From contig JAJEKV010000027.1 of assembly GCA_021234155.1 (NCBI GenBank), positions 5,144,623 through 5,208,622 on the forward strand: a DNA stretch of 64,000 nucleotides, read 5' to 3'. Below, one piece after another: positions 16,764-48,753 of this stretch. The DNA comes from Isoetes taiwanensis. Taxonomy: Eukaryota; Streptophyta; Lycopodiopsida; Isoetales; Isoetaceae. Below the pieces are notes generated by a model. The model saw only the letters and a list, made by a program, of their open reading frames with translations. It did no database searches and had not been told where the DNA came from. The position numbers were made by a program, and so were the translations under genes. Positions within the stretch are counted from its first letter, which is position 1. Every line of letters starts with the position of its first letter.

Positions 16764-17189
16764 ATGCAGATGGTGGTGGTGAATGTGCCATGGGATTCCT
16801 ACCCAAAACATGTTGCGCAATTTTTTATAGATGGACATGACTTCCCACTATTTGATGATGATTTTGAGGCATACTTTCAATACTTAGAAGAGGTGGAGGA
16901 TTGGAAAAGTGAAATGCAAGATGCTGCAGAAAGTGTTGCATTGGGGAATGATGGGATGCAAGTGAACATTAAGGCTTTGCTTTGGGCTTTGAGAGTTTTT
17001 GGAGAGTGGTATGAAGCCATAGGGTTGCTTGGAGTTGAGATACACCCGGAGGTCAAAGTGGAGATAGATATTGAAAATTTTGCTAGACAAATGTATGCTA
17101 GCTTTCGTAAACGTGGCGTTGTGAGAGTCCATAAGTTTGTGGAGGTTATGGAAGCTACCTTATTTATGGAATACCTTATGCAACATGGG
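16764..17189 (+). pseudogene. Helitron accessory ORF A, unit 1 (truncated)
   Basis: This is the same protein as the intact 145-codon ORF at 40626, starting MQMVVVNVPW. It is identical over most of its length (one difference is D for A in the DGHDFPLF stretch). At about 17189 the sequence jumps from the end of ORF A straight into the Rep gene at the KAIKYLYKY motif, deleting the ORF A stop, the spacer to Rep and the first half of Rep. The fused frame runs on to 17252. Confidence 0.75.
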
Positions 17190-19613
17190 CCGTCAAGGCC
17201 ATTAAATATCTATACAAATATGTATACAAAGGGCCGGATATGGTCAATGTGAACTTAGAAGCAGCGAGTGATGGTGCATCTACTAGCACCAGACCCACCA
17301 TAAACCATGATGAGGTTGAACAATACTTGAATGCACGCTATTTCTCAGCTTCTGAGGCATCATGGAGAATCCTCTCATATGAAATATAGCAACAGTTTCC
17401 TCATGTCACTAGATTGGCTGTGCATCTCCCAATGCAACAAGATGTATACTATCGAGAAGGTATGAGCATGGACAGTATAAGAAGCAAGAATAACGGAACA
17501 ACGTTGACAGCATTTTTCGAGATGAATGCATCTAGAAATAGAGAGGCTACTCAATTGCTCTATCATGATTTTCCTAAAAAGTTTACCTACGATCAACCCA
17601 GTCGAAAATGGAAGGTCAGAGAGAATTTCCTACTATTGGACGCATGTACTTTGTTAATCCTTCAGAAGGAGAGCGATACTATTTACGACTCTTGTTGACC
17701 CGCGTGACAGGTGCAATTAGTTGTGTGCAACATATAAAGAACCTTGCATTCGTCGTGGGTTGCTTCGAGATGACACAGAATGGCTTGAGTCTCTTCAAGA
17801 AGCAGCACCATGGGGCATGCCACCACAATTGCGGCACATGTTCGCCATGATCCTTTTAAATTGTGAACCATCAAAACCACTACAACTGTGGGAAGAAGTC
17901 AAGCTTTCTATGATCGATGACTTCTTGCATGAGGCACGGAGGGTTGCAGAAGATCAAAGTGTAAATATGTGTGATCAATTATTTGACATGACACTTCTAG
18001 ACATTGAAGATCATATGAACTCTATCGGGCGATCCTTAAGGGAGTTTGATTTCATTCTTCCTGAGCGTGCAATAGATCCATATATGATATTTCGGGATGA
18101 GGTGTTTCAAGAAGATATGGTAGAGGTGCAAGAAGCTGTGGACCACTTATATCACGACCAACGTGTTATCTTCGACCGTGTGATCGATGAGTACGTGATG
18201 TTAGAAAAAGGACGGGTGTTTTTCGTTCATGGTGCAGGCGGCTCGGGAAAGAGTTTTCTTTTTAACACCATGTTGTCTTATGTTCGTGCCAAAGGTATCA
18301 TTGCCTTTGGCGATTCGTCTTCGGAATTGCATCCACTTTATTGAAGGGTGGGCGCACTGCACATTCAAGGTTCAAGATACCGATAAACATAGATGAAACG
18401 TCAACTTGCAATATTCCAAAGCAGTCGGAGTTGGCAAAATTGATAAGAGCGACTCGCATGATTATATGGGATGGGGCCCCAATGATGCATAAATATGTTT
18501 ATGAAGCACTGAATAGAACACTCCGTGACGTGATGTCATGTCACAAATTGTTTGGGGGACTCATTGTTGTTTTGGGAGGAGATTTTCGTCAGCTTCCACC
18601 TGTGGTTCCACGAGGAAATCGCCCCCAAATTGTGCATGCTTCCTTTAAATGCTCTTACATATGGGATCATGTCGAGGAACATAAGCTGAACGTAAATATA
18701 CGAGTAATGAACAGTGTGGGAAGAGATGCGGAAGAGCAAAAGGCATTTGCAGAGTATCCAGTGTGGGAAGAGATGCGGAAGAGCAAAAGGCATTTGCAGA
18801 GTATCTTTTACGAGTTGGAGATGGACTTGAGACCACGTTTCCCAATATTGGATCGGATGTGATACGTCTTCCAGAAGAGATTTGTGTGAAGTCGCAAGAC
18901 TTAAATGACTTGCTAGCCATGACATTCCCTGATGTTTCAACGAATTATGGAAGTGTGTCCTATTGGTGCAAAGGGGTATACTTACGCCACTGAATGATGA
19001 TGTAGATGAAGTAAACAAGAGGATGACAGAGTGGCTGCCTGCTGCACCTATTGATTATTAGAGTGCTGATCGAGCTGTTAATGAGAATGACGCAGGGGTC
19101 TATCCTATCGAATTTTTGAATGCACAAACTCCGAGTGGGATGCCTCCTCATCAATTAACTTTGAAGGTTGGCATGATTGTCATGTTATTGAGGTCTGTTT
19201 CTACACGTAAGGGACTCTACAATGGCACTCGCCTCATTATATGTTCATTGGGAAGACGCGCTATAGATGCCGGGATTGTCACTGGAAAGAATATTGGAAG
19301 CAGAGTGTTCATATTTAGAATACCTTTGGTGCCCAATAATGCAGAACTCCCATTTCAGTTTGAGCGCATACAATTTCCATTGTGTCCAGCTTTTGGTATG
19401 ACAATCAACAAGTCCCAAGGCCAAACAATGAAAATGGTGGGTTTGTATTTGCCAAATCCAGTATTCAGTCACGGACAACTCTACGTGGCACTCTCGAGAG
19501 CTCAATGAATCCAACGCATAAAGGTACTCATTCTATCGAAGGATGGAGATGCTTCAAGAGATGTCGACAGATCACGATATACAACAAATATAGTATACAA
19601 AGAACTCCTCTAA
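17190..19613 (+). pseudogene. Helitron helicase half, unit 1 (broken)
   Basis: It starts at the paired-tyrosine region of Rep and continues through the PIF1-type helicase: Walker A GAGGSGKS near 18240, IIWDGAP (Glu of Walker B changed to Gly) near 18465, GGDFRQLPP near 18575 and the C-terminal INKSQGQ and YVALSRAQ motifs near 19410-19500. Damage: TAG at 17387-17389, deletions near 17625 and 17724, a frameshift near 18310, a 47-bp tandem duplication at 18714, TAG at 19059-19061 and TGA at 19506-19508. The three stops at 17387, 19059 and 19506 are shared with unit 2. Confidence 0.85.
18714..18805 (+). repeat. 47-bp tandem duplication in unit 1 helicase
   Basis: The stretch beginning gtgtgggaagagatgcgg occurs at 18714 and again at 18761 and shifts the reading frame. 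Other units carry it once. Confidence 0.9.
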
Positions 19614-19731
19614 GTGTGAGTTTAATACTTAGAAATCACAACTTCTAATTTCTCTTTGTTCTCATTGATATCTTCTACTTTCTTTCTTCCTTTTATTTTT
19701 ATCTTACTTACTTACATCTTCATTCATGTAG

Positions 19732-20067
19732 ATGGTGCGTATTTTGGTCCCGTGGTATGTCTTCGGTCACCATGTCGTCGAATGCCTAAAGGGTGACAGG
19801 AGCTACCACATCTCCCGTGTTACTTATGCCATACGCGCTCTTGGATCATGGTACGACTGGGAACGAAAATATCGTGCTCATGTACATGGGGTAGCAAGCG
19901 TGGAAGTTGAGGAGCTCATTGCAAAGCTCAAAGAAATATTTAGCACTGACGAGGTTGTCAATTTGGAGCGTTTTATCCAACTAATTGATGACTTCCTGTT
20001 TGCTCAAGTTTATCCGAGGGAACGTTGTTTACGCGGATGTGTTGTGAGAGAGGTAGGTGGAGACTAG
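19732..20067 (+). CDS. Helitron accessory ORF B, unit 1
   Basis: 111 codons without interruption, the best-preserved copy of ORF B. It starts MVRILVPW and ends VREVGGD before TAG. Predicted to be mostly helical, with an acidic and hydrophobic second half. It sits 118 bp after the helicase stop and follows the same pyrimidine-rich tract ending catgtag. There is no membrane segment or cysteine/histidine cluster suggesting a zinc finger. Function unknown; see the comparison with ORF A. Confidence 0.65.
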   Translation: MVRILVPWYVFGHHVVECLKGDRSYHISRVTYAIRALGSWYDWERKYRAHVHGVASVEVEELIAKLKEIFSTDEVVNLERFIQLIDDFLFAQVYPRERCLRGCVVREVGGD

Positions 20068-22671: not shown

Positions 22672-22846
22672 ATGCAGATGGTGGTGGTGAATGTGCCATG
22701 GGATTCCTACCCAAAACATGTTGCGCAATTTTTTATAGATGGACATGCCTTCCCACTATTTGATGATGATTTTGAGGCATACTTTCAATACTTAGAAGAG
22801 GTGGAGGATTGGAAAAGTGAAATGCAAGATGCTGCAGAAAGTGTTG

Positions 22847-23771
22847 GGCAAAAGTATGCTGGTGGGTATCAAATAAACGCGATGCAGCACCCAGCACCCA
22901 GCACTTTCTAGCACTTTCCATCACCTTTTTTTTTTTTGGTTTTTCATAATCGGCCATGCAATTCGATCATACATGCAAAATTTCAGGGCCTAATTTGGGA
23001 TATTGAGTGAGCAATTAGAGAAAACCCATTTCTGCAGCAATTTTGGTAAAACAGAACAAAATTTCTTAATTCAGCCCAAATTAAGCTAAATCAGATGGGG
23101 CTTTTCAGATTTTCATAATCAGCCATGCACCCATATCCTACGTGCAAAATTTCAGAACCTAATTTGGGATATTGTGTGAGCAATTAGAGAAAAACCATTT
23201 CTACAAAGCAGCTTTGGTGCAGTTGAAGAATTTTTAATTCAGCCCAAATTAAGCTAAATCACCGGGGCTTTTCAGATTTTCATAATCGGCCATGCACCCA
23301 TATCCTATATGCAAAATTTCGAACCTAATTTGGAATATTGAATGAAAAACCATTCTTGCAAATGTGGTTTTTGTAAAACAAAGAGAAATCTCTTAAAGTC
23401 AGCCCCAATTTAAGCAAAATTAGATGGGGCTTTTAGGCTCAATATGGTCGAAATGACAATCCTACCTTGGTGGATAAGTTTTATGAAAAGATATGATGGA
23501 TTGAGCAACTAATTGGAGATTCACATGCCAATTTGGAGTTTGGGTCATTTAACCCACGAAAGACTTCGAATTTAATGAAATCGATGCTAATCTGATGGAA
23601 AATTCGAGCAATGTGGAATGATTCTTGCTGAAGAATCCTCTTAACAAATGAAGAATGTAAAAAAGCGAACCCACGAGCACCCACGAGCACCCAAAAAAAA
23701 GCAGGAAGCAGGGGTGCTAAAAGCATGCGTCCGGACGCATGCTTTTGATACCCACCAGCATACTTTTATCC
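22847..23771. mobile_element. 925-bp non-autonomous TIR element
   Basis: The left end GGCAAAAGTATGCTGGTGGG and the reverse complement of the right end GGATAAAAGTATGCTGGTGG form inverted repeats of about 27 bp. The target duplication is tgttg (22842-22846 and 23772-23776), confirmed against the empty site in unit 3. Just inside the right end is a perfect palindrome, gcatgcgtccggacgcatgc. No transposase frame is present. A 5-bp duplication does not fit the usual plant hAT (8), Mutator (9), CACTA (3) or Harbinger (3) classes. Confidence 0.85.
22940..23430. repeat. Tandem repeat of about 168 bp inside the TIR element
   Basis: About three diverged copies, with ttcataatcggccatgca ending at 22960, 23129 and 23296 (periods 169 and 167). 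Each copy contains gcaaaatttc..aacctaatttgg and aattcagcccaaattaagc blocks. Confidence 0.85.
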
Positions 23772-24039
23772 TGTTGCATTGGGGAATGATGGGATGCAAG
23801 TGAACATTAAGGCTTTGCTTTGGGCTTTGAGAGTTTTTGGAGAGTGGTATGAAGCCATAGGGTTGCTTGGAGTTGAGATACGCCCGGAGGTCAAAGTGGA
23901 GATAGATATTGAAAATTTTGCTAGACAAATGTATGCTAGCTTTCGTAAACGTGGCTTTGTGAGAGTCCATAAGTTTGTGGAGGTTATGGAAGCTACCTTA
24001 TTTATGGAATACCTTATGCAACATGGGTTGGATATGTAG

Positions 24040-24483
24040 TGCACCTCAATGCCTAACTTTAGGCATTCTTAAAATAAAAGACCACCTTATGGTTGCATTT
24101 TGTTTTGCATAGATTCAACTTAATTGCACAAAAATACAACTTAGCCATTCCTGAAGTAATTTAGCATACTTTTCTTACATGATGCTTTGACATGCTTTTT
24201 TACCAATTAACCTTATGTCCATGTGCACCATTATTGTATTCTTATGTGCTCTTATGTTTATAGGAGATAATTCGCACTTGCACTTTGAGGGGACAAAAAC
24301 TTACCACACTTCTATACTTGCGTACTTGACAGTGGCGACAAATGTCAAAGGTGAGTCTTAAGTTCTATCTTAGATTAATTATCTTGCGCTATTCCCAAGA
24401 TAGAATGTGTGACAAATATTATTCGGTTAGGCTTCTTTGCAACCATCTAAGTTGTATAGATTGCAACACACTAGGATTTGTAC
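24040..24483 (+). other. Gap between ORF A and Rep/helicase, unit 2
   Basis: 444 bp, nearly identical in unit 3. It has no supported frame. It ends with a ...caacacactag sequence shortly before the Rep ATG that could serve as a 3' splice site. Confidence 0.4.
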
Positions 24484-26604
24484 ATGGGGAAGTCTCACCA
24501 AAAAACACCACCTGCTGTGGCCAACAACCCCTCATACATGACACCTATCAATGAAACTAGGTCGGATAAAAAGAGACGACTGGCACATAAACGGGTTGCA
24601 AAGTGTAGAGCCTTGAAACTAGAATATAACACGGATGTCAGAGAGAAAGATGGCCATGCATCTGATGTTGTTGCTGTGGAGGGCCAGCCGGTCCAAACAT
24701 GTTTTGCCTCTACATCAATCACGCCACAAGTTGTACGAGCAGAGCCAGAGCGCCCTATGACTGTGGAAGAGATGCAATCAGTAAGATATCGACACCCAAA
24801 TGATATGAGTATAGGAAGATCTATTGCAAATGGAGGGGGTTCACACTTCATCACGTCAGAAGTTAATGGTATTAAGATGCAGCTATTTCCCACAATAGAT
24901 GAACAAATAGGTGATCAGATGATGTTGCCACAAACTACAAACGTGAATGCTCATGGGTTGTGCAAACCATCTCAGGTCGAACTCATTGAAACATCAAATC
25001 AAATAACGCCACCTATAATAGCGAGTAACCCCTCCTACATGACACCTGAGAATGAAAGTAATACTCATAGAAACAAGCGTCTGCGACACAAAAGGATGGC
25101 AAAGAAAAGGGCCTTGAGGTCAGAGTGCGGTCTTGATAATGGTACCAAATTGACAGATGTTGGACAGATATCTACAGTAGTAGGAGATGCTAGCGTTGAC
25201 CTCATAACAAACTTAATGTGTAACCCCTCTTATGTGACACCGCAAGGTGAGAGCAATAATCAAAAGAAGAGACGACTCGCTCGCATAAGGAAGGCAAAGC
25301 ATACGGCTGTGAGGTTGGATTACAACACTCCTATTGGTCCTAGGGAACGTCCTACTGGTCGAAGCGGTTTCAATAAGATAGCATGGACGTGGAACTTACC
25401 TCCTCCTCATGATCTTGGTAACATGGATTATAGATGTTTGTATTATGGGGCTATGCAGTGGACGACAGAACTCACAGTTAAAAAGAAGTGCAGGGCATGT
25501 GCTAATGGAAATGTGCAGCTGCCACTGATTCTAGAACCACCACAGGCATTGTTTGACCTATATACGAGAACAGATAGTTTGAGTGATCACTTTCGCACGA
25601 ACATTAGAAAGTACAATAATATTTTTTCGTTTGCCTCAGTGGGTGTGAAAATTGATGAGGCGTTGGCAAATGCTATTGGTGGAGCTTACACTTTTAGGGT
25701 CAATGGCCGTATGTGCCATAAGATGGGAATATTATTGCCACCGCAAGGGCATCAAGAGCATGTAAAATTTGCACAGATATACATCATGGATGGCGAGGAC
25801 ATGCAAGTTGAACGCAGGATGCCCATTTTTGATGGATTGAGGCAAGAAATAGTGGTGCAGTTGCAGGCCCTTATGACAGAGTACAATCCATTTGTTAGCA
25901 TATTCTTGAGCGCGGCACAGATTATGCGTGTCCATCCAACCATGGATATCCGTCTGCGTATACCTTCTTGCAATGTGCAAAATCCTGTGAGGAGGCAATA
26001 TAATGCTCCAACTGTAAATGAGGTGGCTGTCTTAATGCCTGTCGATGATAAGCCTGAAGATGGTCAGTGGGACATTATTATACACTCTAAGGATGGTGGC
26101 GTGAGGTTTATAGATGCATATCACTCAGCGTATGATCCATTGCACTTTGTGCTACTTCTTCCCTATGGTACAGATGGATGGCATCTTAAAATACCTCATG
26201 GACGGCGAGGCGCAAAGAAAGTAACTATTATGGAGTACTACAGATATCATCTGTTCATGCGTCATGGGCATGCATCTCCCCTTCACATGGCTGGCCGATT
26301 GTTTCAAGAATACATTTGTGATATGTTTGCGAAGATGGAACAAGAAAGACTTCAATTCATAGTGTTGAATCAACACACCATTCGAAAAGACATGTTAGAG
26401 GGCATTATAGACTTTGAAGGAGACGATGCAAACGCTATTGGCCGAAAAGTTGTCTTACCATCCTCACATATGGGAGGTCCGAGATACATGACCCAAGGAT
26501 ATCAGGATGCTATGTCTATTGTTCGCGAACATGGCAGGCCGGACCTCTTTATAACCATGACTGCCAATGCAAATTGGGAAGAGACACAACAGGAGAAAGG
26601 TCAT

Positions 26605-27060: not shown

Positions 27061-27240
27061 GGAAAAAAATAAAATAAAAATAAAAAAAATATTTGGCTTA
27101 GATAATTATTACAATATGATGTACAAGGAGCAAAAGGGCATGTCACCTTCTTTTTTAATTGCAAATCGTGAATTGTATTTATATTTTTAAATAATCACAA
27201 AAGACTCGTTAAGGGGAGTATCCACCCGTTTAGCCTAGAG

Positions 27241-28208: not shown

Positions 28209-28496
28209 CTGAAGCATAAATGGTGGATATATAAAAGCGTGTTTGTGTCTACCGTCAATATACATATCCTGTCCCGATAGGAAACTTTTGAGCACTTTAC
28301 AATTTATTCTAAGTGAAGAGAATGAACAAAACAACAAATTTAGATGACAAAGTACTAATATTTAAGGTTGATATCTTAAATAATATGTTCACATAACTTA
28401 CATCAAAAAATTATTATTATTATGATAGTCGGGTATATTCGGGGCCAAATCACCTGCAGACTTACGTGTCTAAAACAAAGCGAAATGGACGCTCTA

Positions 28497-29240
28497 AGGG
28501 TCGAAGATGGGAAGGGAAAGCACGAAGGAGAGAAGAAGAAATGATTGGGGGGGGGAGGGGAGAGAAGAATAGAATCGAAGGGGAAGAGAAAGAATAGAAG
28601 GAGGAAGAAGGGAAGGAAAAGAAATATGAAGAGAAAAATAAGAGAAGGAAAGAAGAGATAAAAAAATAAGAGAAGAAGAAAGAATCGAAGAAGGGAAGAA
28701 GAGAAAGGAAGAATAGAATCGAAGAAGGGAAGAAGAGAAAGGAAGAATAGAATCGAAGAGAAGAGAAGAATAGAATCGAATAAGAGAATAAGAATAAGAG
28801 AAGAGAAGAATAGAATAGAATAAGAGAAGAGAAGAATAGAATAAGAGAAGAGAAGAATAGAATCGAAGGGGAAGAGAAAGAATAGAAGGAGGAAGAAGGG
28901 AAGAAATAAGAGAAGGGAAGAAGGGAAGGAAACGAAATATGAAGAGAAATTAGAGAAGAAATGAGAAGAAATGAAAGAAGAAGAGAAGAAGAGAAGAAGA
29001 AGAAGAAGAGAGAAGAAGAGAAGGAAAGAAGAGAAATGAGAGAAGAAATGAGAAGACATGAGAGAAGAAGAGAAGAAGAAAGAAGAGAAGGAAAGAAGAG
29101 AAATATGAAGAGAAATGAGAGAAGAAATGAGAGAAGAAGAGAAGAAGAAGAAGAGAGAAGAAGAGAAGGGAAGAAGAAAGGAAGGGGAAAGAATAGAAGA
29201 GAAGAAATGAGAAGAAATGAGAGAAGAAGAAAAATGAAGA
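28497..29240 (+). repeat. Polypurine (GA-rich) tract of about 740 bp
   Basis: Almost pure G and A on the plus strand, built from gaagaagagaa and gaatagaatcgaag words repeated irregularly. The long minus-strand frames it creates (Ser/Phe/Leu only) are compositional artefacts. Confidence 0.95.
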
Positions 29241-29444
29241 ACACAAAAAACCTAGGTTAGGCATGCACCTTTCAATCCAAAAAACCTATTCAATCTAAAA
29301 AATATGATGTACTAACCTTAGAATAGTTGCTTGCAGGTCGATCAGGGTAGTAGCGCCGCAGATCGCCCAAAAAGCTCGAAGAGGAAGCGAAAAGAAAAGG
29401 TGCGGGAAAGCCGGCCGCGCGCAGTTTCAAAAAATTATAGAACG

Positions 29445-30870: not shown

Positions 30871-33800
30871 TGACCATTCTCTTGTTGTGAGATTAGGAGG
30901 GAATTATTATATGGCCAATCGCCAAGTGATCGGCCAGAGTTAGTGGCTAGAGTATTCCATATGAAGGTAAAGGAGCTGATAGATCTGATAACTAATCGTG
31001 GTATATTCGGTAGCATAATTGCAAAAAGTCTATGTCATTGAGTTCGGAAGAGGCTTACCACATGTACATTTGTTGACTATGTTGGATCAGGAAGACAAGC
31101 CCTTCACAGCCGAAGAGATTGATCAAATAATTTGTGCTGAAATACCAGACAAAGATCTATATCCTGAATTGTATGAGGTAGTCACCTGTAATATGATGCA
31201 TGGGCCATGTGGTATTGGATATCTGAATAGTCCTTGCATGCAAGATGGTATCCACATGCATTTTCAGATTAGACGACAGTTGTTGACAGATATCCATTGT
31301 ACCAAAGAAGGGATGATGGCCGAAAGGTGGGAAAAGGGGATATAGATTTAGATAACAGATGGGTTGTGCCATATAATCCTTGGCTGACATCGTATTTCAA
31401 GTGCCATATCAATGTTGAGGTGTGTGCTGCCGTCAAGGCCATTAAATATCTATACAAATATGTATATAAAGGGCCGGATATGATCAATGTGAACTTAGAA
31501 GCAGCGAGTGATGGTGCATCTACTAGCACCAGACCCACCGTAAACCATGATGAGGTTGAGCAATACTTGAATGCACGCTATTTCTCAGCTTCTGAGGCAT
31601 CATGGAAAATCCTCTCATATGAAATATAGCAACAGTTTCCTCATGTCACTAGATTGGCTGTGCATCTCCCAATGCAACAAGATGTATACTATCGAGAAGG
31701 TATGAGCATGGACAGTATAAGAAGCAAGAATAACGGAACAACGTTGACAGCATTTTTCGAGATGAATGCATCTAGAAATAGAGAGGCTACTCAATTGCTC
31801 TATCACGATTTTCCTAAAAAGTTTACCTACGATCAACCCAGTCGAAAATGGAAGGTCATAGAGAATACCCAGAAGTTTCCCACTATTGGACGCATGTACT
31901 TTGTTAATCCTTCAGAAGGAGAGCGATACTATTTACGACTCCTGTTGACCCGCGTGACAGGTGCAATTAGTTTTGAAGATTTACGCTCTTTTGACGGGGA
32001 GTTGTGTGCAACATATAAAGAACCTTGCATTCGTCGTGGGTTGCTTCGAGATGACACATAATGGCTTGAGTCTCTTCAAGAAGCAGCACCATGGGGCATG
32101 CCACCACAATTGCGGCACATGTTCGCCATGATCCTTTTAAATTGTGAACCATCGAATCCACTACAAATGTGGGAAGAAGTCAAGCTTTCTATGATCGATG
32201 ACTTCTTGCATGAGGCACGGAGGGTTGCAGAAGATCAAAGTGTAAATATGTGTGATCAATTATTTGACATGGCACTTCTAGACATTGAAGATCATATGAA
32301 CTCTGTCGGGCGATCCTTAAGGGAGTTTGATTTCATTCTTCCTGAGCGTGCAATAGATCCATATATGATATTTCGGGATGAGGTGTTTCAAGAAGATATG
32401 GTAGAGGTGCAAGAAGCTGTGGACCGCTTATATCACGACCAACGTGTTATCTTCGACCATGTGATCGATGAGCACGTGATGTTAGAAAAAGGATGGGTGT
32501 TTTTCGTTCATGGTGCAGGCGGCTCGGGAAAGAGTTTTCTTTTTAACACTATGTTGTCTTATGTTCGTGCCAAAGGTATCATTGCACTGGCAGTTGCGTC
32601 TTCAGGAATTGCATCCACTTTATTGAAGGGTGGGCGCACTGCACATTCAAGGTTCAAGATACCGATAAACATAGATGAAACGTCAACTTGCAATATTCCA
32701 AAGCAGTCGGAGTTGGCAAAATTGATAAGAGCGACTCGCATGATTATATGGGATGAGGCCCCAATGATACATAAATATGTTTATGAAACACTGAATAGAA
32801 CACTCTGTGACGTGATGTCATGTGACAAATTGTTTGGGGGACTCATTGTTGTTTTGGGAGGAGATTTTCATTAGCTTCCACCTGTGGTTCCACGAGGAAA
32901 TCGCCCCCAAATTGTGCATGCTTCCTTTAAATGCTCTTATATATGGGATCATGTCGAGGAACATAAGCTGAACGTAAATATACGAGTAATGAACAGTGTG
33001 GGAAGAGACGCAGAAGAGCAAAAGGCATTTGCAGAGTATCTTTTACGAGTTGGAGATGGACTTGAGACCACGTTTCCCAATATTGGATTGGATGTGATAC
33101 GTCTTCCAGAAGAGATTTGTGTGAAGTCGCAAGACTTAAATGACTTGCTAGCCGTGACATTCCCTGATGTTTCAACGAATTATGGAAGTGTGTCCTATTG
33201 GGTGCAAAGGGGTATACTTACGCCACTGAATGATGATGTAGATGAAGTAAACAAGAGGATGACAGAGTGGTTGCCTGCTGCATCTATTGATTATTAGAGT
33301 GTTGATCGAGCTGTTAATGAGAATGACGCAGGGGTCTATCCTATCGAATTTTTGAATGCACAAACTCCGAGTGGGATGCCTCCTCATCAATTAACTTTGA
33401 AGGTTGGCATGATTGTCATGTTATTGAGGTCTGTTTCTACACGTAAGGGACTCTACAATGGCGCTCGCCTCATTATACGTTCATTGGGAAGACGCGCTAT
33501 AGATGCCGAGATTGTCACTGGAAAGAATATTGGAAGCAGAGTGTTCATATTTAGAATACCTTTGGTGCCCAATAATGCAGAACTCCCATTTCAGTTTGAG
33601 CGCATACAATTTCCATTGCGTCCAGCTTTTGGTATGACAATCAACAAGTCCCAAGGCCAAACAATGAAAATGGTGGGTTTGTATTTGCCAAATCGAGTAT
33701 TCAGTCTCGGACAACTCTACGTGGCACTCTCGAGAGCTCAATGAATCCAACGCATAAAGGTACTCATTCTATCGAAGGATGGAGATGCTTCAAGAGATGT

Positions 33801-33967
33801 CGACAAATCACGATATACAACAAATATAGTATACAAAGAACTCCTCTAAGTGTGAGTTTAATACTTAAAAATCACAACTTCTAATTTCTCTTTGTTCTCA
33901 TTGATATCTTCTACTTTCTTTCTTCCTTTTATTTTTATCTTACTTACTTACATCTTCATTCATGTAG

Positions 33968-34302
33968 ATGGTGCGTATTTTGTCCCGTGGTATGTCTTCT
34001 GTCACCATGTCGTCGAATGCCTAAAGGGTGACAGAAGCTACCACATCTCCCGTGTTACTTATGTCATACGCGCTCTTGGATCATGGTACGACTGGGAACG
34101 AAAATACCGTGCTCATGTACATGGGGTAGCAAATGTGGAAGTTGAGGAGCACATTGCAAAGCTCAAAGAAATATTTAGCACTGATGAGGTTGTCAAGTTG
34201 GAGCGTTTTATCCAACTAATTGATGACTTCCTGTTTGCTCAAGTTTATCCGAGGGAACGTTGTTTACGCGGATGTGTTGTGAGAGAGGTAGGTGGAGACT
34301 AG
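33968..34302 (+). pseudogene. Helitron accessory ORF B, unit 2 (frameshift)
   Basis: Same gene as at 19732, but one G is missing in the run after gcgtatttt (near 33980), which breaks the frame after about five codons. The rest of the frame is open to the TAG at 34300-34302. The 3' third is repeated twice more just downstream. Confidence 0.85.
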
Positions 34303-34662: not shown

Positions 34663-34663
34663 T

Positions 34664-37600: not shown

Positions 37601-40600
37601 GAAAGGTAATCAACACACTAGCTCCCCATCCCTGCCTATCACTCCCGCAAGTAACACCCCCCAGTGTGGCCATCAGCCGCATACCATTACAAATTACCAT
37701 GTCAAAACTCCGGCAGAGGAAATTTGGACCAAATGCACGCCAAATGGTCTAGCCACCATATCCCAGGGAGTGCCGTGTATCTTTGAATAGCTACTGCTCA
37801 AACCAAAGCGGATCGGCATTATCGTCACCTTTGAAGGTCACCGATCGCAAATCATCCAGACGAGCATTTAAATCTCCAAGCAAAAAACACCGCCCTCATT
37901 GCCTATAGCGGTCTATGTCATCACATGATCCTTATCACGGCAAGATCGGACATCGTGGTTCCGCATCATGTACACAGTAGAACTTAGAGCCCTGCATGGG
38001 GAATGTAGCGGCTAACAAGAAACAATGGGACATGACCAGTTTCAATACCATTACCCACATGTAGCGATTAAATGCATCGGACTTACGAAGTGTGATCTTG
38101 CATGCTAAGGCATCCCTAAAGTAGCAAGCCACTCCACTTGCGTACGCGTGCGCCATGGCTCATTGTAAGTGAGAAATGCGATATCCTCGAATGTCCGGCA
38201 ATCATGCCCTTCATACTCCCATGTCTCCTGTAGGGAAGGCGATGTCCATGTCTGCCGCTGATCCCATTCAAGCCCTTTGCCCATACGCCCGCGGAAGCCC
38301 CTACAATTCCGGAAAGAATCACGAAGACACTTTCCCTATCTTGCCTTGCGGTACGTGGACCCATCCCGAGTGCACGAAGGGCCTTCTGGCGGTTGGAATA
38401 ACGGGCAGCCTGCTCACGGGACCACGATGGATGTGCGTTGCATTGGTGGAAGGCCTCAATCCGCCCCCCCCTCCGCTCGCACGGCACGTTGCCCCGGGGC
38501 GCTCGCCGCCTGCGGCGACGCGAAATGTTCGTGAAATCTTTGCCTCATCAAGCGATGCGGCGAGGTACATATACCTTCATCTTGCCATTAACCAAACCAG
38601 CAGCCCCTCCCAAATTTGTTTAATCTCTCTTATCTTGACCAACTCTTGGCTTCTTTCCCGCTTGTTGCAAAGTGGCGTGAGATCCGCATCCGTATATGGG
38701 CGCATACCTTTCAAGCGTAACGGTCGCGTTGCAACAACAAAGATAACATCAAAGTTTGCATCCAAGAAAATGCCGTTTGCATACAAGTTTGCATCCAAGA
38801 AAACGCCAAGTTTGCATACAAGGTTCCGTGATTTTCTTGCATCAAAGTTAGCCCTCTACATCACTTACGCCGTAGTTTTGACATTAAGTCAATTTGGGAT
38901 GGCTTCTTTTTGGCAAAGCAATAGTAGAAGAGCTTGCGATGGTGATGTCCACAAGGAAAGGAGTTTCTATCCGCTTGCCTTTTTCCCGATTATCGATAAT
39001 ATGATTGTTATTTTTATGCACGTTGCATAACACCGTAGTTTCACATAGTTTCAATCCAATGTAATCCTCGACATCTAGACCAAGTAACCTTGAGCTCAAT
39101 AGTAGTTCACAGATTTTTAAATGTTGCAATGTGTTTTTTTGCATCCAACCCTGTTCTACACTTTTTCTGAAGGATAACATCAAGTAATTTTTTTTTGACA
39201 GGGGCCGACGAATCAAGGGGCGTAATTTGTGCCTTAGCAAGCAAATTTCTCCGGTATGATTTTTAGATTTTGTTCATACATAGTTTAGCATTCCAACCCA
39301 GGTCTCCGAAGTAGTGGAGTTCTTGAAGCTTTTTTTTCTTCCATTCTTACCGCCCCAACATCCCGCCATTGTTTTTCCTTCTCCGACTCAAAGACATCTT
39401 TGAAGCCAGATACAATAGCGAATACCTACACAAAGAAATGAAATGAAACTCCGCAAAAAAGATTATCTCAAGAGCTTCGTACATCTTTCCCGGCTATGAG
39501 GTTGGCTTGATGGTGCATTTTGGAGGCGAAGCTTCGTCATGTCTCTTGGCTCTTACTTAGGTATGGCTCTTGGTAAATTGTTGCTGTGTCGATCCTTCTC
39601 TATTTGGGTCATTTGCATAAGAGATTTACGCCGTTATGGATTGAAAAATAAAAATATCGATTGAATCTGGTCTTGATTATTTGGGCAAAAAGCATTGCGA
39701 TATGTTCTTGCAAAATAATCGAGTTGAACATTTTGTGGCTCCAGATTGGGCAATTCATCTTGAAGAATGTTTTCTTTCTCTTTGAAGGAAACAAGGTATG
39801 TGTATAATTTCCTCAAGATCAAACAGTTGTGTAGCCGTAATAGAGTGGATATGAATAAACACGGAGATGATCGCTCACACCGAGCCAAGGTCGCCTCACC
39901 GGCTTTTGAAAGCTCAACACATATAGATGATTAATAAGGGAAGCTTTTTGGGGTTGAATAAAAAAGCATTATACCCAATGAAACTCAACCAATCTGCTCA
40001 AACACCGGATAGCCTTCCAAATATTTTTTTGCCATGAAATCCAATGCTCTATTTACTCCTTCCAGCTTATTGTTTTGAACACTATTAATTGTTTGTGTTG
40101 TTGATGTAGGGCGCCAAATTCTATTTCGAGCCAACCCTACCAAGTGAACTCAAGGTGGTTCACATTTAAACAAGCATTTTGTTTAATTAAAAAAAAAAAA
40201 CTTAACATTTCATCCCTATATTGACTCAACTCAAATGCATCATTTTAACAAAGTTTAACAACTTTTAGCAAATGCATCACTTTAACATACTTAAATGCAT
40301 CATTTTAACAAAGTAGACGACATGCCAAACTTTAACTTAGAAGACAAAGCTAAGCAAAAATGTGGACTTAGAACATAAAGTGAAACAAATGTTAACTTAG
40401 ACACAAGTAAAATAAATAGATTGAAATATAGTCCAAACTCAATTAACTTAAAATCAAGTAATTAAAAAACATAAGTTTTTCAAAGTTGTTGGCCAAATAT
40501 AGTGTATTCAAGTATAAAGTGTTGGCCAAATTTTTGTATAAATAGTGCATTTATGTTCCTTCACGTAAAACAAGGCACGTGCTTGCCAACATGAAGATGG

Positions 40601-40625
40601 ATTGACTTAAAACATAATTTCCATA
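34664..40625 (+). other. Helitron spacer, unit 2 (with LINE block)
   Basis: Spacer equivalent to those at 14164 and 20068, enlarged by the LINE block at 35984-38741. The part from gataacatcaaagtttgcat to ttcttacc (about 0.63 kb) occurs on both sides of the block, at about 35337-35983 and 38742-39350. TATAAATA of the next unit lies at 40537-40544. Confidence 0.7.
35984..38741 (-). pseudogene. Decayed LINE (non-LTR retrotransposon)
   Basis: Minus strand. The part nearest 38150-37800 encodes pieces of an endonuclease (exonuclease-endonuclease-phosphatase fold), for example VACYFRDALACKITLRKSD and, further on, a LLGDLNARLDD motif. Near 36250 the reverse-transcriptase box reads LLYADDVALLA, followed by a MQQHLDALG-like stretch close to that of the LINE at 44330. 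Dozens of small deletions and frameshifts make it unreadable as a whole. Neither target duplication nor poly-A tail was identified; instead the block is flanked by the 0.63-kb spacer duplication. Confidence 0.75.
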
Positions 40626-41063
40626 ATGCAGATGGTGGTGGTGAATGTGCCATGGGATTCCTACCCAAAACATGTTGCGCAATTTTTTAGAGATGGACAT
40701 GCCTTCCCACTATTTGATGATGATTTTGAGACATACTTTCAATACTTAGAAGAGGTGGAGGATTGGAAAAGTGAAATGCAAGATGCTGCAGAAAGTGTTG
40801 CATTGGGGAATGATGGGATGCAAGTGAACATTAAGGCTTTGCTTTGGGCTTTGAGAGTTTTTGGAGAGTGGTATGAAGCCATAGGGTTGCTTGGAGTTGA
40901 GATACGCCCGGAGGTCAAAGTGGAGATAGATATTGAAAATTTTGCTAGACAAATGTATGCTAGCTTTCGTAAACGTGGCTTTGTGAGAGTCCATAAGTTT
41001 GTGGAGGTTATGGAAGCTACCTTATTTATGGAATACCTTATGCAACATGGGTTGGATATGTAG
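40626..41063 (+). CDS. Helitron accessory ORF A, unit 3 (intact)
   Basis: 145 codons and stop, the only uninterrupted full-length copy of ORF A. It starts MQMVVVNVPW, has HVAQFF at residues 16-21, an acidic middle (DDDFEAYFQYLEEVEDW), LRVFGEWYE, and ends LMQHGLDM. It lies 82 bp after a TATA box, so it is the first gene of the unit, about 450 bp before Rep. No known domain is recognisable. The MVxxxVPW start, HVA, GxWY and the hydrophobic C-terminal pattern recur in ORF B after the helicase, suggesting an old duplication inside the Helitron. Function unknown; a DNA-binding or Rep-partner role would be a guess. Confidence 0.65.
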   Translation: MQMVVVNVPWDSYPKHVAQFFRDGHAFPLFDDDFETYFQYLEEVEDWKSEMQDAAESVALGNDGMQVNIKALLWALRVFGEWYEAIGLLGVEIRPEVKVEIDIENFARQMYASFRKRGFVRVHKFVEVMEATLFMEYLMQHGLDM

Positions 41064-41511
41064 TGCACCTCAATGCCTAACTTTAGGCATTCTTAAAATA
41101 AAAGACCACCTTATGGTTGCATTTTGTTTTGCATAGATTCAACTTAATTGCACAATAATACAACTTAGCCATTCCTGAAGTAATTTAGCATACTTTTCTT
41201 ACATGATGCTTTGACATGCTTTTTTACCAATTAACCTTATGTCCATGTGCACCATTATTGTATTCTTATGTGCTCTTATGTTTATAGGAGATAATTCGCA
41301 CTTGCACTTTGAGGGAGGGGACAAAAACTTACCACACTTCTATACTTGCGTACTTGCCAGTGGCGACAAACGTCAAAGGTGAGTCTTAAGTTCTATCTTA
41401 GATTAATTATCTTGTGCTATTCTCAAGATAGAATGTGTGACAAATATTATTCGGTTAGGCTTCTTTGCAACCATCTAAGTTGTATAGATTGTAACACACC
41501 AGGATTTGTAC

Positions 41512-44500
41512 ATGGGGAAGTCTCGCCAAAACACATCACCTGCTGTGGCCAACAACCCCTCATACATGACATCTATCAATGAAACTAGGTCGGATAAAAA
41601 GAGACGACTGGCACATAAACGGGTTGCAAAGTGTAGAGCCTTGAAACTAGAATATAACATGGATGTCAGAGAGAAAGATGGCCATGCATCTGATGTTGTT
41701 GCTGTGGAGGGCCAGCCGGTCCAACATGTTTTGCCTGTACATCAATCACGCCACAAGTTGTACGAGCAGAGCCAGAATGCCCTATGACTGTGGAAGAGAT
41801 GCAATCAGTAAGATATCGACACCCACATGATATGAGTATAGGAAGATCTATTGCAAATGGAGGGGGTTCACACTTCATCACGTCAGAAGTTAATGGTATT
41901 AAGATGCAGCTATTTCCCACAATAGATGAACAAATAGGTGATCAGATGATGTTGCTACAAACTACAAACGTGAATGCTCATGGGTTGTGCATACCATCTC
42001 AGGTCGAACTCATTGAAACATCAAATCAAATAACGCCACCTATAATAGCGAGTAACCCCTCCTACATGTAGTAGGAGATGCTAGCGTTGACCTCATAACA
42101 AACTTAATGTGTAAACCCTCTTATATGACACCGCAAGGTGAGAGCAATAGTCAAAAGAGGAGACGACTCGCTCGCATAAGGAAGGCAAAGCATACGGCTG
42201 TGAGGTTGGATTACAACACTCCTATTGGTCCTAGAGAACGTCCTACGGGTCGAAGTGGTTTCAATAAGATAGCTTGGACGTGCCTTACCTCCTCCTCATG
42301 ATCTTGGTAACATGGATTATAGATGTTTGTATTGTGGGGCAGAACTCACAGTTAAAAAGAAGTGCAGGGCATGTGCTAATGGAAATGTGCAGCTGCCATT
42401 GATTCCAGAACCACCACAGGCATTGTTTGACCTATATACGAGAACAGATAGTTTGGGTGATCACTTTCGCACGAACATTAGAAAGTACAATAATATTTTT
42501 TCGTTTGCCTCAGTGGGTGTGAAAATTGATGAGGCGTTGGCAAATGCTATTGGTGGAGCTTACACTTTAGGGTCAATGGCCGTATGTTCCATAAGATGGG
42601 AACATTATTGCCACCGCAAAATTTGCACAGATATACATATGGCGAGGACATGCAAGTTTGAACGCAGGATGTCCATTTTTTATGGATTGAGGCAAGAAAT
42701 AGTGGTGCAGTTGCAGGCCCTTATGACAGAGTACAATCCATTTGTTAGCATATTCTTGAGCGTGGCACAGATTATGCGTGTCCATCCAACCATGGATATC
42801 CGTTTGCGTATACCTTCTTGCAATGTGCAAAATCCTGTGAGGAGGCAATATAATGCTCCAACTGTAAATGAGGTGGCTGTCTTAATGCCTGTCGATGATA
42901 AGCCCGAAGATGGTCAGAGGGACATTATTATACACTCTAAGGATGGTGGCGTGAGGTTTATAGATGCATATCACTCAGCGTATGATCCATTGCACTTTGT
43001 GCTACTTCTTCCCTATGGTACAGATGGATGGCATCTTAAAATACCTCATGGAAGGAGAGGCGCAAAGGAAGTAACTATTATGGAGTACTACAGATATCAT
43101 CTGTTTCACGCGTCATGGGCATGCATCCCCCCTTCACATGGCTGGCCGATTGTTTCAAGAATACATTTGTGATATGTTTGCGAAGATGGAACAAGAAAGA
43201 CTTCAATTTATAGTGTTGAATCAACACAACATTCGAAAAGACATGTTACAGGGAATTATGGACTTTGAAGGAGACGATGCAAACGCTATTGGCCGAAAAG
43301 TTGTCTTACCATCCTCACATATGGGAGGTCCGAGATACATGACCCAACGATATCAGGATGCTATGTCTATTGTTCGCGAACATGGCAGGCCGGACCTCTT
43401 TATAACCATGCCTGCCAATGCAAATTGGGAAGAGATTAGGAGGGAATTATTATATGGCCAATCGCCAAGTGATCGGCCAGAGTTAGTGGCTAGAGTATTC
43501 CATATGAAGGTAAAGGAGCTGATAGATCTGATAACTAATCGTGGTATATTCGGCCGCATAATTGCAAAAGTCTATGTCATTGAGTTTCAGAAGAGAGGCT
43601 TGCCACATGTACATTTGTTGACTATGTTGGATCAGGAAGACAAGCCCTTCACAGCCGAAGAGATTGATCAAATAATTTGTGCTGAAATACCAGACAAAGA
43701 TTTATATCCTGAATTGTATGAGGTAGTCACCCGTAATATGATGCATGGGCCATGGTATTGGATATCTGAATAGTCCTTGCATGCAAGATGGTAAGTGTAC
43801 AAAACATTATCCACGTGCATTTTCAGATGAGACGACAGTTGTTGACGGATATCCGTTGTACCGAAGAAGGGATGATGGCCGAAAGGTGAAAAAGAGGGAT
43901 ATAGATTTAGATAACAGATGGGTTGTGCCATATAATCCTTGGCTGACATCGTATTTCAAGTGCCATATCAATGTTGAGGTGTGTGCTGCCATCAAGGCCA
44001 TTAAATATCTATACAAATATGTATACAAAGGGCCGGATATGATCAATGTGAACTTAGAAGCAGCGAGTGATGGTACCAGACCCACCATAAACCATGATGA
44101 GGTTGAGCAATACTTGAATGCACGCTATTTCTCAGCTTCTGAGGCATCATGGAGAATCCTCTCATATGAAATACAGCAACAGTTTCCTCATGTCACTAGA
44201 TTGGCTGTGCATCTCCCAATGTAACAAGATGTATACAATCGAGAAGGTATGAGCATGGACAGTATAAGAAGCAAGAATAACGGAACAACGTTGACAGCAT
44301 TTTTCGAGATGAATGCATCTGGAAATAGAATAAAAATAAGAATAAGAATAGGTTTTTAGCGTCCACGGAGACCAATTGGCCTATGGGACCCAAACCAAAA
44401 AGAGAGCAGCAAGTCTATTACTGACAGGATTAAAAAACCCCCGTCCCGAAGGGTTTTCGAGGGAAAAACCTTAGCAGTAATAAGTATGCTGGCACGCTGT

Positions 44501-47500
44501 ACAATTGTATAGGACAGTTCAATGTCATCCCGTAGGACACAACTGAGTCCGTGCATCCATAACCTCCTGGAGGTATGACCCCAACAAACCCACTGACGCC
44601 GTACTCAATAACTGATGCAACGGCTGGCCAGGCACTAGTAATCGAACATATCGCTCTCGGATATGAGCAAATGCTGGGCAGATCTGGAGGGCATGACATT
44701 CATCCTCAATGGCACCCTGGTGGCAACACTGGCAAAGCCTTTGCTCCCGTGCTTCCCGAGCCCACCGTCCTGTTTCAATACGGAGGCGATGTGCACCCGT
44801 GCGAATGGAAGCTATAAGTCTGCGCTTCTTCATGGGCAGCTGGGTGTACAAGTATTGGTGTGGGCCTCTCGTGAGCCTAGGATTGACTTGCTGCTGATAG
44901 TGTGCCAGCTTAACGTGCGTCAGAGCATCTGCATCCCAGAGCTTGCGAAGGAAAGTAGCATCTAGGTACAGCTTAAGTGCCTTGCGATCTTTCTTTGTCC
45001 TGACCTGGACGCATCTGTTTGCCTGCATACCCCATCGTGAGAACCACTGAGCTTGCTTGTCTTTCCAGCAGGATTTCAGGCGTTGGGGACCCATCGCCAC
45101 GGCCAAAGCAAGGTTGGGCAAGCGTGTATCAGCCATAGCGACCACCTTCTGGAAGTAAACGATATGGCGTTCCAATGCAGCCCGTTGAAGGGGTAGAAAG
45201 CCTGTCTTCTAGAGTAGGATCTGGTATGGAACTGTGGACTTCACCCCAAGGGCCCGTGCCAAGAAGGCCTTCTGCACCTGCTCGAGGTCATTCCAGGTGC
45301 TGAGGGATATCACCGGACCCCACACTTCTGCCCCATACAAAAGGACCGGCTCGACCAAGGCCCGGAACAAGTGTGACTGGTGGCTCCAGGCATACAACTC
45401 TGCCTTGTGGCTGTTGTTCTGCATGGCATATAGTGCTTTCCAACCCGCCGTGACCCACAACCTGATGGCAGCATCCCAATGGGTGAACTCGATCCCCAAG
45501 TACTTGTAGGTCAGAGCCACCTCTACCTCTTGTCCCTGGTAAGTGAATGAGGGAAGCCTTGGCTGATGGGATGACGCAACTAGCAGCACCCTAGTTTTGC
45601 CAAAGTTAACTCGCATGCCAGTGAATCGGCAAAAAGTGTCAAGAGCATCCAGGTGACGTTGCATGTCCTCTGGAGTATAGGCCAGGAGGTTGACATCGTC
45701 AGCATATATGAGTTGCCGGATTGTGTGATGCATGAGATGGGCGCTCGCACCTCCATGCTCAGAGAGCCAATCTTCCAGCTGGTCAATGTATAGGCCAAAG
45801 AGTGTGGGGGAGAGGGGGCAACCCTGACGCACTCCAATACTACTGATTATCGGCTGTCCTGACGATGTGATACGGCCTGAGCATGCCTCGTACAGCCTAT
45901 ATACTGCATTCTGCAAGTCAAGGGAGGTCCCCAGCTGCCGCAGTCTATCCCATAGCCTATCGCAGGGCACTATGTCAAAAGCTTTTGCAAAATCCACGAA
46001 AAGAGGCTACTTAATTGCTCTATCATGATCTACGATCAACCCAGTCGAAAATGGAAGGTCAGAGAGAAAACCCAGAAGTTTTCCACTATTGGACGCATGT
46101 ACTTTGTTAATCCTTCAGAAGGAGAGCGATACTATTTACGACTCCTGTTGACCCGCGTGACAGGTGCAATTAGTTTTGAAGATTTATGCTCTTTTGACGG
46201 GGAGTTGTGTGCAACATATAAAGAAGCTTGCATTCGTCGTGGGTTGCTTCGAGATGACACAGAATGGCTTGAGTCTCTTCAAGAAGCAGCAGCATGGGGC
46301 ATGCCACCACAATTGCGGCACATGTTCGCCATGATCCCTTTAAATTGTGAACCATCGAATCCACTACAACTATGGGAAGAAGTCAAGCTTTCTATGATCG
46401 ATGACTTCTTGCATGAGGCATGGAGGGTTGCAGAAGATCAAAGTGTAAATATGTGTGATCAATTATTTGACATGGCACTTCTAGACATTGAAGATCATAT
46501 GAACTCTGTCGGGCGATCCTTAAAGGAGTTTGATTTCATTCTTCCTGAGCGTGCAATAGATCCATATATGATATTTCGGGATGAGGTGTTTCAAGAAGAT
46601 ATGGTAGAGGTGCAAGAAGCTGTGGACCGCTTATATCACGACCAACGTGTTATCTTCGACCGTGTGATCGATGAGCACGTGATGTTAGAAAAAAGACGGG
46701 TGTTTTTCGTTCATGGTGCAGGCGGCTCGGGAAAGAGTTTTCTTTTTAACACCATATTGTCTTATGTTCGTGCCAAAGGTATCATTGCACTGGCAGTTGC
46801 ATCTTCAGGAATTGCATCCACTTTATTGAAGGGTGGGCGCACTGCACATTCAAGGTTCAAGATACCGATAAACATTCCCTGATGTTTCAACGAATTATGG
46901 AAGTGTGTCCTATTGGGTGCAAAGGGGTATACTTACGCCACTGAATGATGATGTAGATGAAGTAAACAAGAGGATGACAGAGTGGTTGCCTGCTGCACCT
47001 ATTGATTATTACAGTGTTGATCGAGCTGTTAATGAGAATGATGCAAGGGTCTATTCGTATCGAATTTTTGGATGCACAAACTCCGAGTGGGATGCCTCCT
47101 CATCAATTAAATTTGAAGGTTGGCATGATTGTCATGTTATTGAGGTCTGTTTCTACACGTAAGGGACTCTACATTGGCACTCGCCTCATTATACGTTCAT
47201 TGGGAAGATGCGCTATAGATGCCGAGATTGTCACTGGAAAGAATATTGGAAGCAGAGTGTTCATATTTAGAATACCTTTGGTGCCCAATAATACAGAACT
47301 CTCATTTCAGTTTGAGCGCATACGATTTTCATTGCATCCAGCTTTTGGTATGACAATCAACAAGTTCCAAGGCCAAACAATGAAAATGGTGGGTTTCTAT
47401 TTGCCAAATCCAGTATTCAGTCACAGACAACTCTACGTGGCACTCTCGAGAGCTCAAGAAATCCAAGGCATAAAGGTGCTCATTCTATCGAAGGATGGAG

Positions 47501-47565
47501 ATGCTTCAAGAGATGTCGACAGATCACGATATACAACAAATATAGTATACAAAGAACTCCTCTAA
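41512..47565 (+). pseudogene. Helitron Rep/helicase, unit 3 (broken)
   Basis: Start ATG at 41512 (MGKSRQNTS). It retains [11 protein letters not shown] (HUH) near 43600, KAIKYLYKYVYKGPD near 43997, Walker A GAGGSGKS near 46725 and the C-terminal INKFQGQ and YVALSRAQ motifs up to the TAA at 47563-47565. Damage: a one-base loss near 41735, a deletion at about 42068 that removes most of the second basic repeat, small deletions at 42285-42345 and 42566-42650, a frameshift near 43755, TAA at 44221-44223, the LINE at 44330-46001, an 18-bp loss near 46030, and a deletion at about 46875 removing helicase motifs II and III. Confidence 0.9.
44330..46001 (-). mobile_element. 5'-truncated LINE with RT and C-terminal zinc motif
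   Basis: Minus-strand element that begins inside reverse transcriptase at FAKAFDIVPCDRLWD. It continues through GVRQGCPLSPTLFGLYID and LIYADDVNLL (45997-45209). After a frameshift the C-terminal part (45175-44525) ends with a CQCC...ECHALQICP cysteine/histidine motif typical of LINE C-termini. The 3' end (low coordinate) is an AT-rich taaaaataagaataag tail, not pure poly-A. It interrupts unit 3 Rep; only aga could be a target duplication. The clade was not resolved. The decayed LINE at 35984-38741 looks like the same family. Confidence 0.85.
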
Positions 47566-47661
47566 GTATGAGTTTAATACTTAAAAATCACAACTTCTAA
47601 TTTCTCTTTGTTCTCATTGATATCTTCTACTTTTATCTTACTTACATCTTCATTCATGTAG

Positions 47662-47986
47662 ATGGTGCGTATTTTGGTCCCGTGGTATGTCTTCGGTCAC
47701 CATGTCGCCGAATGCCTAAAGGGTGACAGGAGCTACCACATCTCCCGTGTTACTTATGTCATGCGCGCTCTTGGATCATGGTACGACTGGGAACGAAAAT
47801 ACCGTGCTCATGTACATGGGGTAGCAAGCGTGGAAGTTGAGGAGCTCATTGCAAAGCTCAAAGATATTTAGCACTGACGAGTTGGAGCGCTTTATCCAAC
47901 TAATTGATGACTTCCTGTTTGCTCAAGTTTATCCGAGGGAACGTTGTTTACGCGGATGTGCTGTGAGAGAGGTAGGTGGAGACTAG
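47662..47986 (+). pseudogene. Helitron accessory ORF B, unit 3 (frameshift)
   Basis: Same gene as at 19732. Open for 69 codons, then small losses near 47866 (caaagatattt for caaagaaatattt) and at 47881 (about nine bases of gaggttgtcaag) break the frame. The end VREVGGD and TAG at 47984-47986 remain readable. Confidence 0.85.
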
Positions 47987-48753
47987 AGTACATGTATCTA
48001 TTTATCGGGTAATGTAGTGCTTTGACTAACCTTCAATTGTTTATCTTTTTTTTATCATATGAGAAACGACACCGTGCACTGGCGAATTGGTGTTTTGGTA
48101 GCAAGAGAACTCACTTGCATTGGAATATGTAATGGAACACTTTTTAGGGTCTACAAATCATTTCTTCCCGATGCGGTATCTGATTCCGTTATACGAGCCT
48201 ACCTTCGGAATGAGTTGTCTCATGTGCTTGATAGTCATGAGACATCATGGGCAGTTGGAATCAATGACTCGCCTGTACATTTCACTTTTACCCCGGCTAA
48301 GATGTTATCTGTCGGAGAAGTGAATATATCACGGGAGCATCCAACGAAGTACAACATTAGGCCCTTGGTGATGTGCGCCATGTGGAGATGTATATTTAGA
48401 GTTCCATCGTGAACTAAAACATCAATGAGCCAAGACAAGATTTTGTGTTTTATATATTTTTGTACTTATTTCTTATTGATGTACTTAACTACTTCTAAGA
48501 GTGACATTTCCCACATCAATTTTGGATTTGTCTTTCTAGATTTTTTTGTCTTCAATGGTAGATTAAACTATCTCCTACATTCCTTATAAAGCATTGTTTT
48601 CTCTATTGAAATCCATGAACGCAAAGATTATACTATTTCAATAACAAAATTTTTTACAAAAGCAAATAACGTCAAAACTTCACATATAGACGTTTGAGGC
48701 ACATATTTACTAGGGTGTTAAAGGCCAAGAAAAAGCACATGCCTAGGACATTA
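47987..48753 (+). other. Helitron 3' region unique to unit 3
   Basis: Only this unit continues past ORF B with gactaaccttcaattg... to the Helitron end. A plus-strand frame at 48059-48412 (117 codons, from an ATG, starting MRNDTVHWRIGVL) is open and contains HETSWAVGIND; I do not recognise it. A second frame at 48120-48323 overlaps it, so coding status is uncertain. The last 300 bp is AT-rich with no frame. Confidence 0.4.

Follow-up and report, generated by a model that had tools for sequence, protein, structure and literature searches.

How plant Helitrons transpose is poorly understood, and the accessory protein most often mentioned is RPA. A figure legend in a review of land-plant transposable elements indicates that plant Helitrons may contain additional open reading frames (ORFs) (PMC9033089). 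The accessible sections of a report on wheat Xuan-Feng, an active plant Helitron, describe a hairpin situated 11 nt before the right terminal sequence and a large N-terminal domain in the Rep/helicase protein (Rep/Hel) (PMC13286980), and those of a study of Fusarium Helitrons propose that self-insertion yields composites with parts of two Helitrons, cite tandem Helitron insertions in several organisms, and describe an element, FoHeli3, with one additional ORF without known domains (PMC5148889). Here we analyze a 64,000-nt stretch of Isoetes taiwanensis DNA (G000:C1031:5144623-5208622; hereafter the window), together with searches of the 1.66-Gb genome. The window contains a partly decayed head-to-tail array of about four Helitron copies (~8.4-48.8 kb) belonging to a family that encodes three accessory ORFs, A, B, and C, besides Rep/Hel. 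We consider it probable, as the best overall explanation, that B, C, and the 3′ end of this Helitron are the remains of a second element, resembling a sister family termed beta, that became fused tail-on and lost its Rep/Hel by deletion.

ORF B and the probable remnant of a second Rep/Hel

Complete elements elsewhere in the genome have the order A - Rep/Hel - B - C - hairpin - CTAG. Eight 9.9-kb loci (L001-L008), chosen because the match lists placed A and B close together, show the order A - Rep/Hel - B - C, with A open in all eight, B open in seven (not L004), and C at least partly an ORF in seven, being frameshifted in L008. Since these loci were selected as pairs, a count among the matches listed (75 near-full-length A, defined as at least 130 of 145 residues and including copies with stops, and 150 B) serves as the independent measure of order. 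For 34 of the 75 A, a same-strand B follows at a distance of 1.5-12 kb, in 30 cases at 5.5-8.5 kb; 8 A have a B upstream, and 1 has a B on the opposite strand, within 12 kb. The initial annotation had placed A and B at opposite ends of every unit: the two do flank Rep/Hel, but among the matches listed a downstream B accompanies 34 of the 75 A, and B is not terminal in complete elements because ORF C lies past it. Both intact copies of B that it listed are present. B and the 3′ part of the element occupy the following positions in the window:

13828 to 14163, plus strand: ORF B, intact, 111 amino acids; residues 1-91 homologous to ORF D of the beta family
14102 to 14143, plus strand: within B, remnant of the C-terminus of a second Rep/Hel, reading KFIQGNVVYADVL and a stop in the +1 frame
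14149 to 14150, plus strand: candidate splice donor GT (GAG/GTAGGT), five bases past the remnant stop, as in beta Rep/Hel
19732 to 20067, plus strand: second intact copy of ORF B
33979 to 34299, plus strand: third copy of ORF B, residues 5-111 open, its 3′ end within a threefold 116-bp tandem repeat
47662 to 47986, plus strand: fourth copy of ORF B, broken, 69 amino acids open
48059 to 48412, plus strand: ORF C, 117 amino acids, third accessory ORF, with a homolog in the beta family
48754 to 48770, plus strand: 3′ terminal hairpin with a 7-bp stem GCCCGGC/GCCGGGC and loop AAT; DNA fold z -3.9
48780 to 48783, plus strand: CTAG 3′ terminus, 9 nt past the hairpin and followed by T

The sister family was found through Rep matches (at least 150), from which eight further loci were taken and then three chosen for carrying D. 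It comprises L038, L039, and L046-L048, with Rep 63-67% identical to that of the window, and has the architecture D - Rep/Hel - C - hairpin - CTAG. D is a B-like ORF of 105 amino acids, broken in L039, that takes the position of A upstream of Rep/Hel; dozens of matches to it are present in the genome, and in 10 hand-picked pairs among the matches listed, the Rep domain follows it at a distance of 2.6-3.4 kb. A homolog of C was detected downstream of Rep/Hel in four of the five beta loci (L039, L046, L047, and L048; 25-26% identity, E 6e-5 to 0.003), and these four loci share one type of 3′ end (CCCGGCATCGCCGGGCACACGTTTCTAG), with one stem base changed in L048. The hairpin/CTAG end is of the same type in beta and in the A/B-bearing family. 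Four further loci, L042-L045, represent more distant families (Rep 46-58% identical); a tblastn search at E 0.01 shows none of A-D in them, and the idea that all Helitrons here carry A/B was rejected on this ground.

ORF B corresponds to D up to residue 91 or 92 and then runs through 13 codons resembling a beta-type Rep/Hel C-terminus with its stop, both lying in the +1 frame. The +1-frame KFIQGNVVYADVL and stop resemble the end of beta Rep/Hel, which reads RFTRNMVYTDAL followed by a stop in L047, and the +1-frame stop is identically placed in all 14 B copies examined. When four B tails were aligned as DNA with four beta Rep/Hel ends, none of 2000 shuffles was as good in 15 of the 16 comparisons, and 1 of 2000 was in the sixteenth. 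In each of the three beta loci scanned (L046, L047, and L048), the best site for the B tail on either strand was the Rep/Hel end, whereas comparison of the B tail with the Rep/Hel end of its own family gave no result above shuffles (0 of 12). TGA, five bases, and GT follow one another with identical spacing in all four aligned beta loci and in the aligned B copies. The donor-like site reads GAG/GTAGGT in most of the B copies aligned (GTATGG in L003, GTTGGT in L019), and in beta it reads GAG/GTAAGT in L047 and L048, CGG/GTAAGT in L046, and CGA/GTAAGT in L039. Because the tail matches the beta Rep/Hel end and the stop-to-donor spacing agrees, B and its surroundings look like the site of a former second Rep/Hel, in the order D, deletion, Rep/Hel end, C, and 3′ terminus.

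Potential splice acceptors accompany the accessory ORFs. AG directly precedes the ATG in all eight copies of B, all four of D, and six of eight of C; the acceptor-like site of B and D is catgtag/ATGGT in 8/8 B and 3/4 D copies, the fourth D having cgtgtag. The donor of B and the acceptor of C are both in phase 0, which makes a B-C fusion protein possible, and from the AG before the ATGs of B, D, and C and the common frame of the B donor and C acceptor, several proteins are probably produced by alternative splicing of one transcript. A and B as exons of Rep/Hel were ruled out because each retains its own stop near the same place across wide divergence. In the beta family, splice-like sites suggest one further coding exon upstream of ORF C. 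Neither ORF C nor the 3′ terminus (48783) appears in the initial annotation. The window has the hairpin, CTRR end, and insertion before T that mark a Helitron 3′ terminus, and the GCCCGGC-AAT-GCCGGGC/CTAG end is kept in six of nine elements aligned and altered in L002, L004, and L005.

Relationship of ORFs A, B, and D

ORF A, the 5′ accessory ORF of the element, is found in the window at the following positions:

40626 to 41063, plus strand: ORF A, intact, 145 amino acids, acidic (isoelectric point 4.6)
16764 to 17189, plus strand: copy of ORF A, 142 of 145 residues, which then joins Rep/Hel-derived sequence after an internal deletion
22672 to 24036, plus strand: copy of ORF A divided by other sequence into 22672-22908 and 23794-24036

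Residues 27-66 of A form the extra acidic stretch noticed earlier, with 12 D/E against 1 K/R; the isoelectric points of B, D, and C are 6.5, 5.9, and 9.2, C being basic. A and B each gave at least 150 matches in the genome, in some cases with a single copy matched in two pieces. A candidate promoter of the element, TATAAATAG, lies at 40537-40545 in the window copy, ~90 bp upstream of ORF A.

That A and B are homologous, as first proposed from their similar starts, central block, and C-terminal pattern, is well supported, mainly via D. BLASTP aligned A68-136 with B26-92 (E 1e-5, 21% identity; Z 8.8, 0/2000 shuffles as good, the shuffles preserving composition). From the shared Met, with HVA in register, 8 of the first 16 residues are identical between A1 and B, which 1 of 20000 shuffles equaled; for A2, the other main type of A, and B the count is 7 of 16 (56/20000 as good), and the motif in A2 has neither its P nor its H. 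The same 16 residues compared with D gave 0/20000 shuffles as good for A1 and 21/20000 for A2. By local alignment, no shuffle out of 2000 was as good for A1-B, A1-D, A2-B, A2-D, A3-B, or A3-Bdiv, and ORF C, used as a negative control, was matched or exceeded by 1222 (A1), 1398 (A2), and 857 (A3) shuffles of 2000. Profile-profile comparison joined A with B and D combined (89%, E 2e-6) and found nothing between A and C. B and D are 42% identical and matched each other by hhalign at 99.8% (E 2e-28). The MVxxxVxW start, WY core, and matching C-terminal stretch that we propose as traits of the family are present in its members, with the A rows of L018 and L034 deviating. In a phylogenetic tree, A and B each formed one clade (100/100), and B sat on a long branch, either next to the D sequences or inside them (94/92 for its grouping with one D row), the position inside D not being firm.

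None of A, B, C, and D had a Pfam match exceeding the cut-off, and searches of PDB sequences with profiles of A, B, C, and B+D gave nothing under E 0.05. Since A and B also had no PHROG match at E < 0.1, they are not recognizable as RPA-like, in agreement with the initial annotation. Viral contigs scanned with the B+D and A profiles contained no relative. Weak and inconsistent matches were rejected: YozD (E 0.0086, A, below cut-off), HPIP_like (E 0.18, beta C), amphiphysin (E 0.31), and others.

Probable origin of the element and possible roles of its accessory proteins

B is closer to D than to A, and its tail overlaps a C-terminal remnant of a second Rep/Hel; for these two reasons we favor a fusion of two Helitrons. 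A, B, and D form one protein family, in which A is the element's own 5′ ORF. We infer that a beta-like Helitron initially lay downstream in tandem and that the fusion then retained its 5′ ORF as B, together with its C and 3′ terminus, while its Rep/Hel would have been deleted almost entirely, leaving the last 13 codons out of frame in the B tail. The pair would since have moved as one element, using the outermost 5′ end together with the 3′ end of the downstream partner. The initial annotation had instead envisaged an intra-element duplication, by which a second copy of the 5′ ORF came to lie on the 3′ side of that element, the two then diverging. The homology of A and B within one element would fit such a copy, but B is far closer to D of the other family, with which the tree joins it, and the Rep/Hel end in the B tail is unlike the element's own in 12/12 comparisons, so that we regard duplication as improbable. 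More improbable still is a lack of common ancestry, with A and B as two small helical proteins that resemble each other through convergence or composition. An identity of 21% and the weak direct profile comparison would fit this view, but the composition-preserving shuffles, the in-register N-terminus, the match between the A and D profiles, and the failure of ORF C to match all speak for common descent.

Several observations weigh against the fusion of two Helitrons or the relationships on which it is built. The remnant is short, at 42 bases or ~55 including the donor, and since the downstream Rep/Hel is gone, the beta-like identity of that partner has to be read from the tail, D, and C. C itself gave no match in L038, a beta locus long enough to contain it, and its acceptor is missing in the window copy, which reads CAT, and in L008, which is without AG; splicing and expression are predicted from the nucleotide sequence. 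Some shuffles were as good as the real alignment for A1-Bdiv (5/2000), A2-Bdiv (5/2000), and A3-D (6/2000). The profile comparison that the initial annotation had named as a refuting test was divided, hhalign being weak for A and B directly (35%, E 4e-4) and good for A and D (92%, E 7e-7). AlphaFold2 models of the window's own copies consist entirely of helices and are both poor (pLDDT 39 for A, 43 for B), and consequently no fold backs the A-B relationship or a function; their helix order would fit A as B plus two inserted helices, to which we give little weight.

The ratio of mean nonsynonymous (dN) to mean synonymous (dS) divergence was calculated by the Nei-Gojobori method for hand-picked intact copies, with no formal test, leaving out broken copies and some intact rows (e.g., 1 of 15 for B and 5 of 21 for D). 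It was 0.29 for type 1 A (11 copies, 55 pairs), 0.25 for type 2 A (7 copies, 21 pairs), 0.27 for B (14 copies, 91 pairs; 0.26 for residues 1-91 and 0.24 for the tail), 0.34 for C (8 copies, 28 pairs), and 0.28 for D (16 copies, 120 pairs). Values of ~0.3 suggest that the ORFs are maintained as used proteins. Type 2 A is 36-47% identical to the window copy of A. Among L001-L008, between elements with type 1 and type 2 A, the DNA is ~60-65% identical from A into the N-terminal region of Rep/Hel and ~84-95% identical across the Rep core, helicase, B, C, and 3′ end, and from this difference a 5′ module of A and the Rep/Hel N-terminal region seems to have been exchanged between elements. The 5′ boundaries vary among element pairs, and the 250 bases before A show no common 5′ end.

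What the proteins do can be proposed only tentatively; action of A, B, and D as small helical partners of Rep/Hel in transposition is the function we would place first. Next comes suppression of host silencing, which we think unlikely. VANC counters host silencing for VANDAL elements, and the fast divergence of A in elements whose Rep core, helicase, and 3′ half remain similar would suit a protein that counters the host rather than acting with Rep/Hel. Nothing specific speaks against this reading; the N-terminal region of Rep/Hel, part of the 5′ module, diverges along with A, which linkage alone could explain. Returning to the fusion, a fuller scenario is one we hold as possible without leaning toward it: A/B/D and, as a second unnamed family, C would be regular parts of transposition, and one lineage would have gained a second family member by head-to-tail fusion through introns, with splicing still joining B to its new surroundings and a B-C fusion protein makeable.

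Organization of the array and comparison with described Helitrons

Rep and a PIF1-type helicase share one coding region, as expected of a Helitron, with Pfam matches in the window to PF14214 (E 1.5e-54 and 2.7e-31) and PF05970 (E 4.3e-56). Elsewhere in the genome, PF05970 reaches E 6.9e-80 in L007, and the Rep/Hel frame is open for 1979 codons in L041. The remaining features of the array are as follows:

14203 to 16700, plus strand: spacer joining tandem units
24484 to 26584, plus strand: N-terminal part of Rep/Hel, Helitron_like_N (PF14214, E 2.7e-31)
32098 to 33849, plus strand: helicase part, to the Rep/Hel stop of its unit (PF05970 PIF1, E 4.3e-56 for 32098-32871)
41512 to 47565, plus strand: broken Rep/Hel gene belonging to the last unit, with Helitron_like_N at 43138-43770 and a KELL stop (47563-47565)

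Three units leave element sequence at the matching base (14201, 20105, and 34340), ~40 bp past B, and enter the same spacer, which is preceded in the third unit (34340) by the threefold 116-bp repeat; a single junction was therefore probably the source from which the array was amplified. In the last unit, Rep/Hel is broken by an insertion at ~44330-46000. Inside this insertion lies a minus-strand reverse-transcriptase fragment (RVT_1, E 7e-8) at 45209-45733, beside an ORF at 44525-45136 without a clear match. A GA-rich simple repeat of ~700 bp is located at 28503-29246 within the array. Beyond the array, a host gene on the minus strand at 60596-62050 has a domain of pyridoxal-phosphate enzymes (PF00291, E 9e-28 over 60599-60901) and presumably resembles threonine dehydratase.

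We propose A/B/D as a previously unnamed protein family; no description of ORFs A, B, C, or D was found in the open-access literature consulted. Conserved accessory proteins would offer new handles on the mechanism of transposition. The fusion would show, at the level of base pairs, tandem Helitrons recombining into a longer element that has gained a gene, and such recombination is a way in which the gene content of Helitrons could grow.

The elements resemble plant Helitrons in their PF14214 Rep, PF05970 helicase, 3′ hairpin, and CTAG end followed by T. They differ in having A, B, and C instead of the optional RPA-like ORF, none of A-D being recognizable as RPA-like in our tests, and RPA is the sole partner protein named in the accessible text of the land-plant review (PMC9033089). 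Wheat Xuan-Feng likewise has a hairpin near its right end and a large Rep/Hel N-terminal domain, but the accessible sections describe its Rep/Hel protein only and no accessory ORF (PMC13286980). The Fusarium elements, as presented in the available parts of that study, are alike in the composites, with parts of two Helitrons, that are proposed there and in an extra ORF without known domains; unlike those described here, they are noncanonical fungal Helitrons, and the ORF of FoHeli3 has the opposite orientation (PMC5148889). Compared with what is accessible of that work, the feature particular to the Isoetes element is that the apparently captured accessory ORF is still conserved and is fused to a remnant of Rep/Hel.

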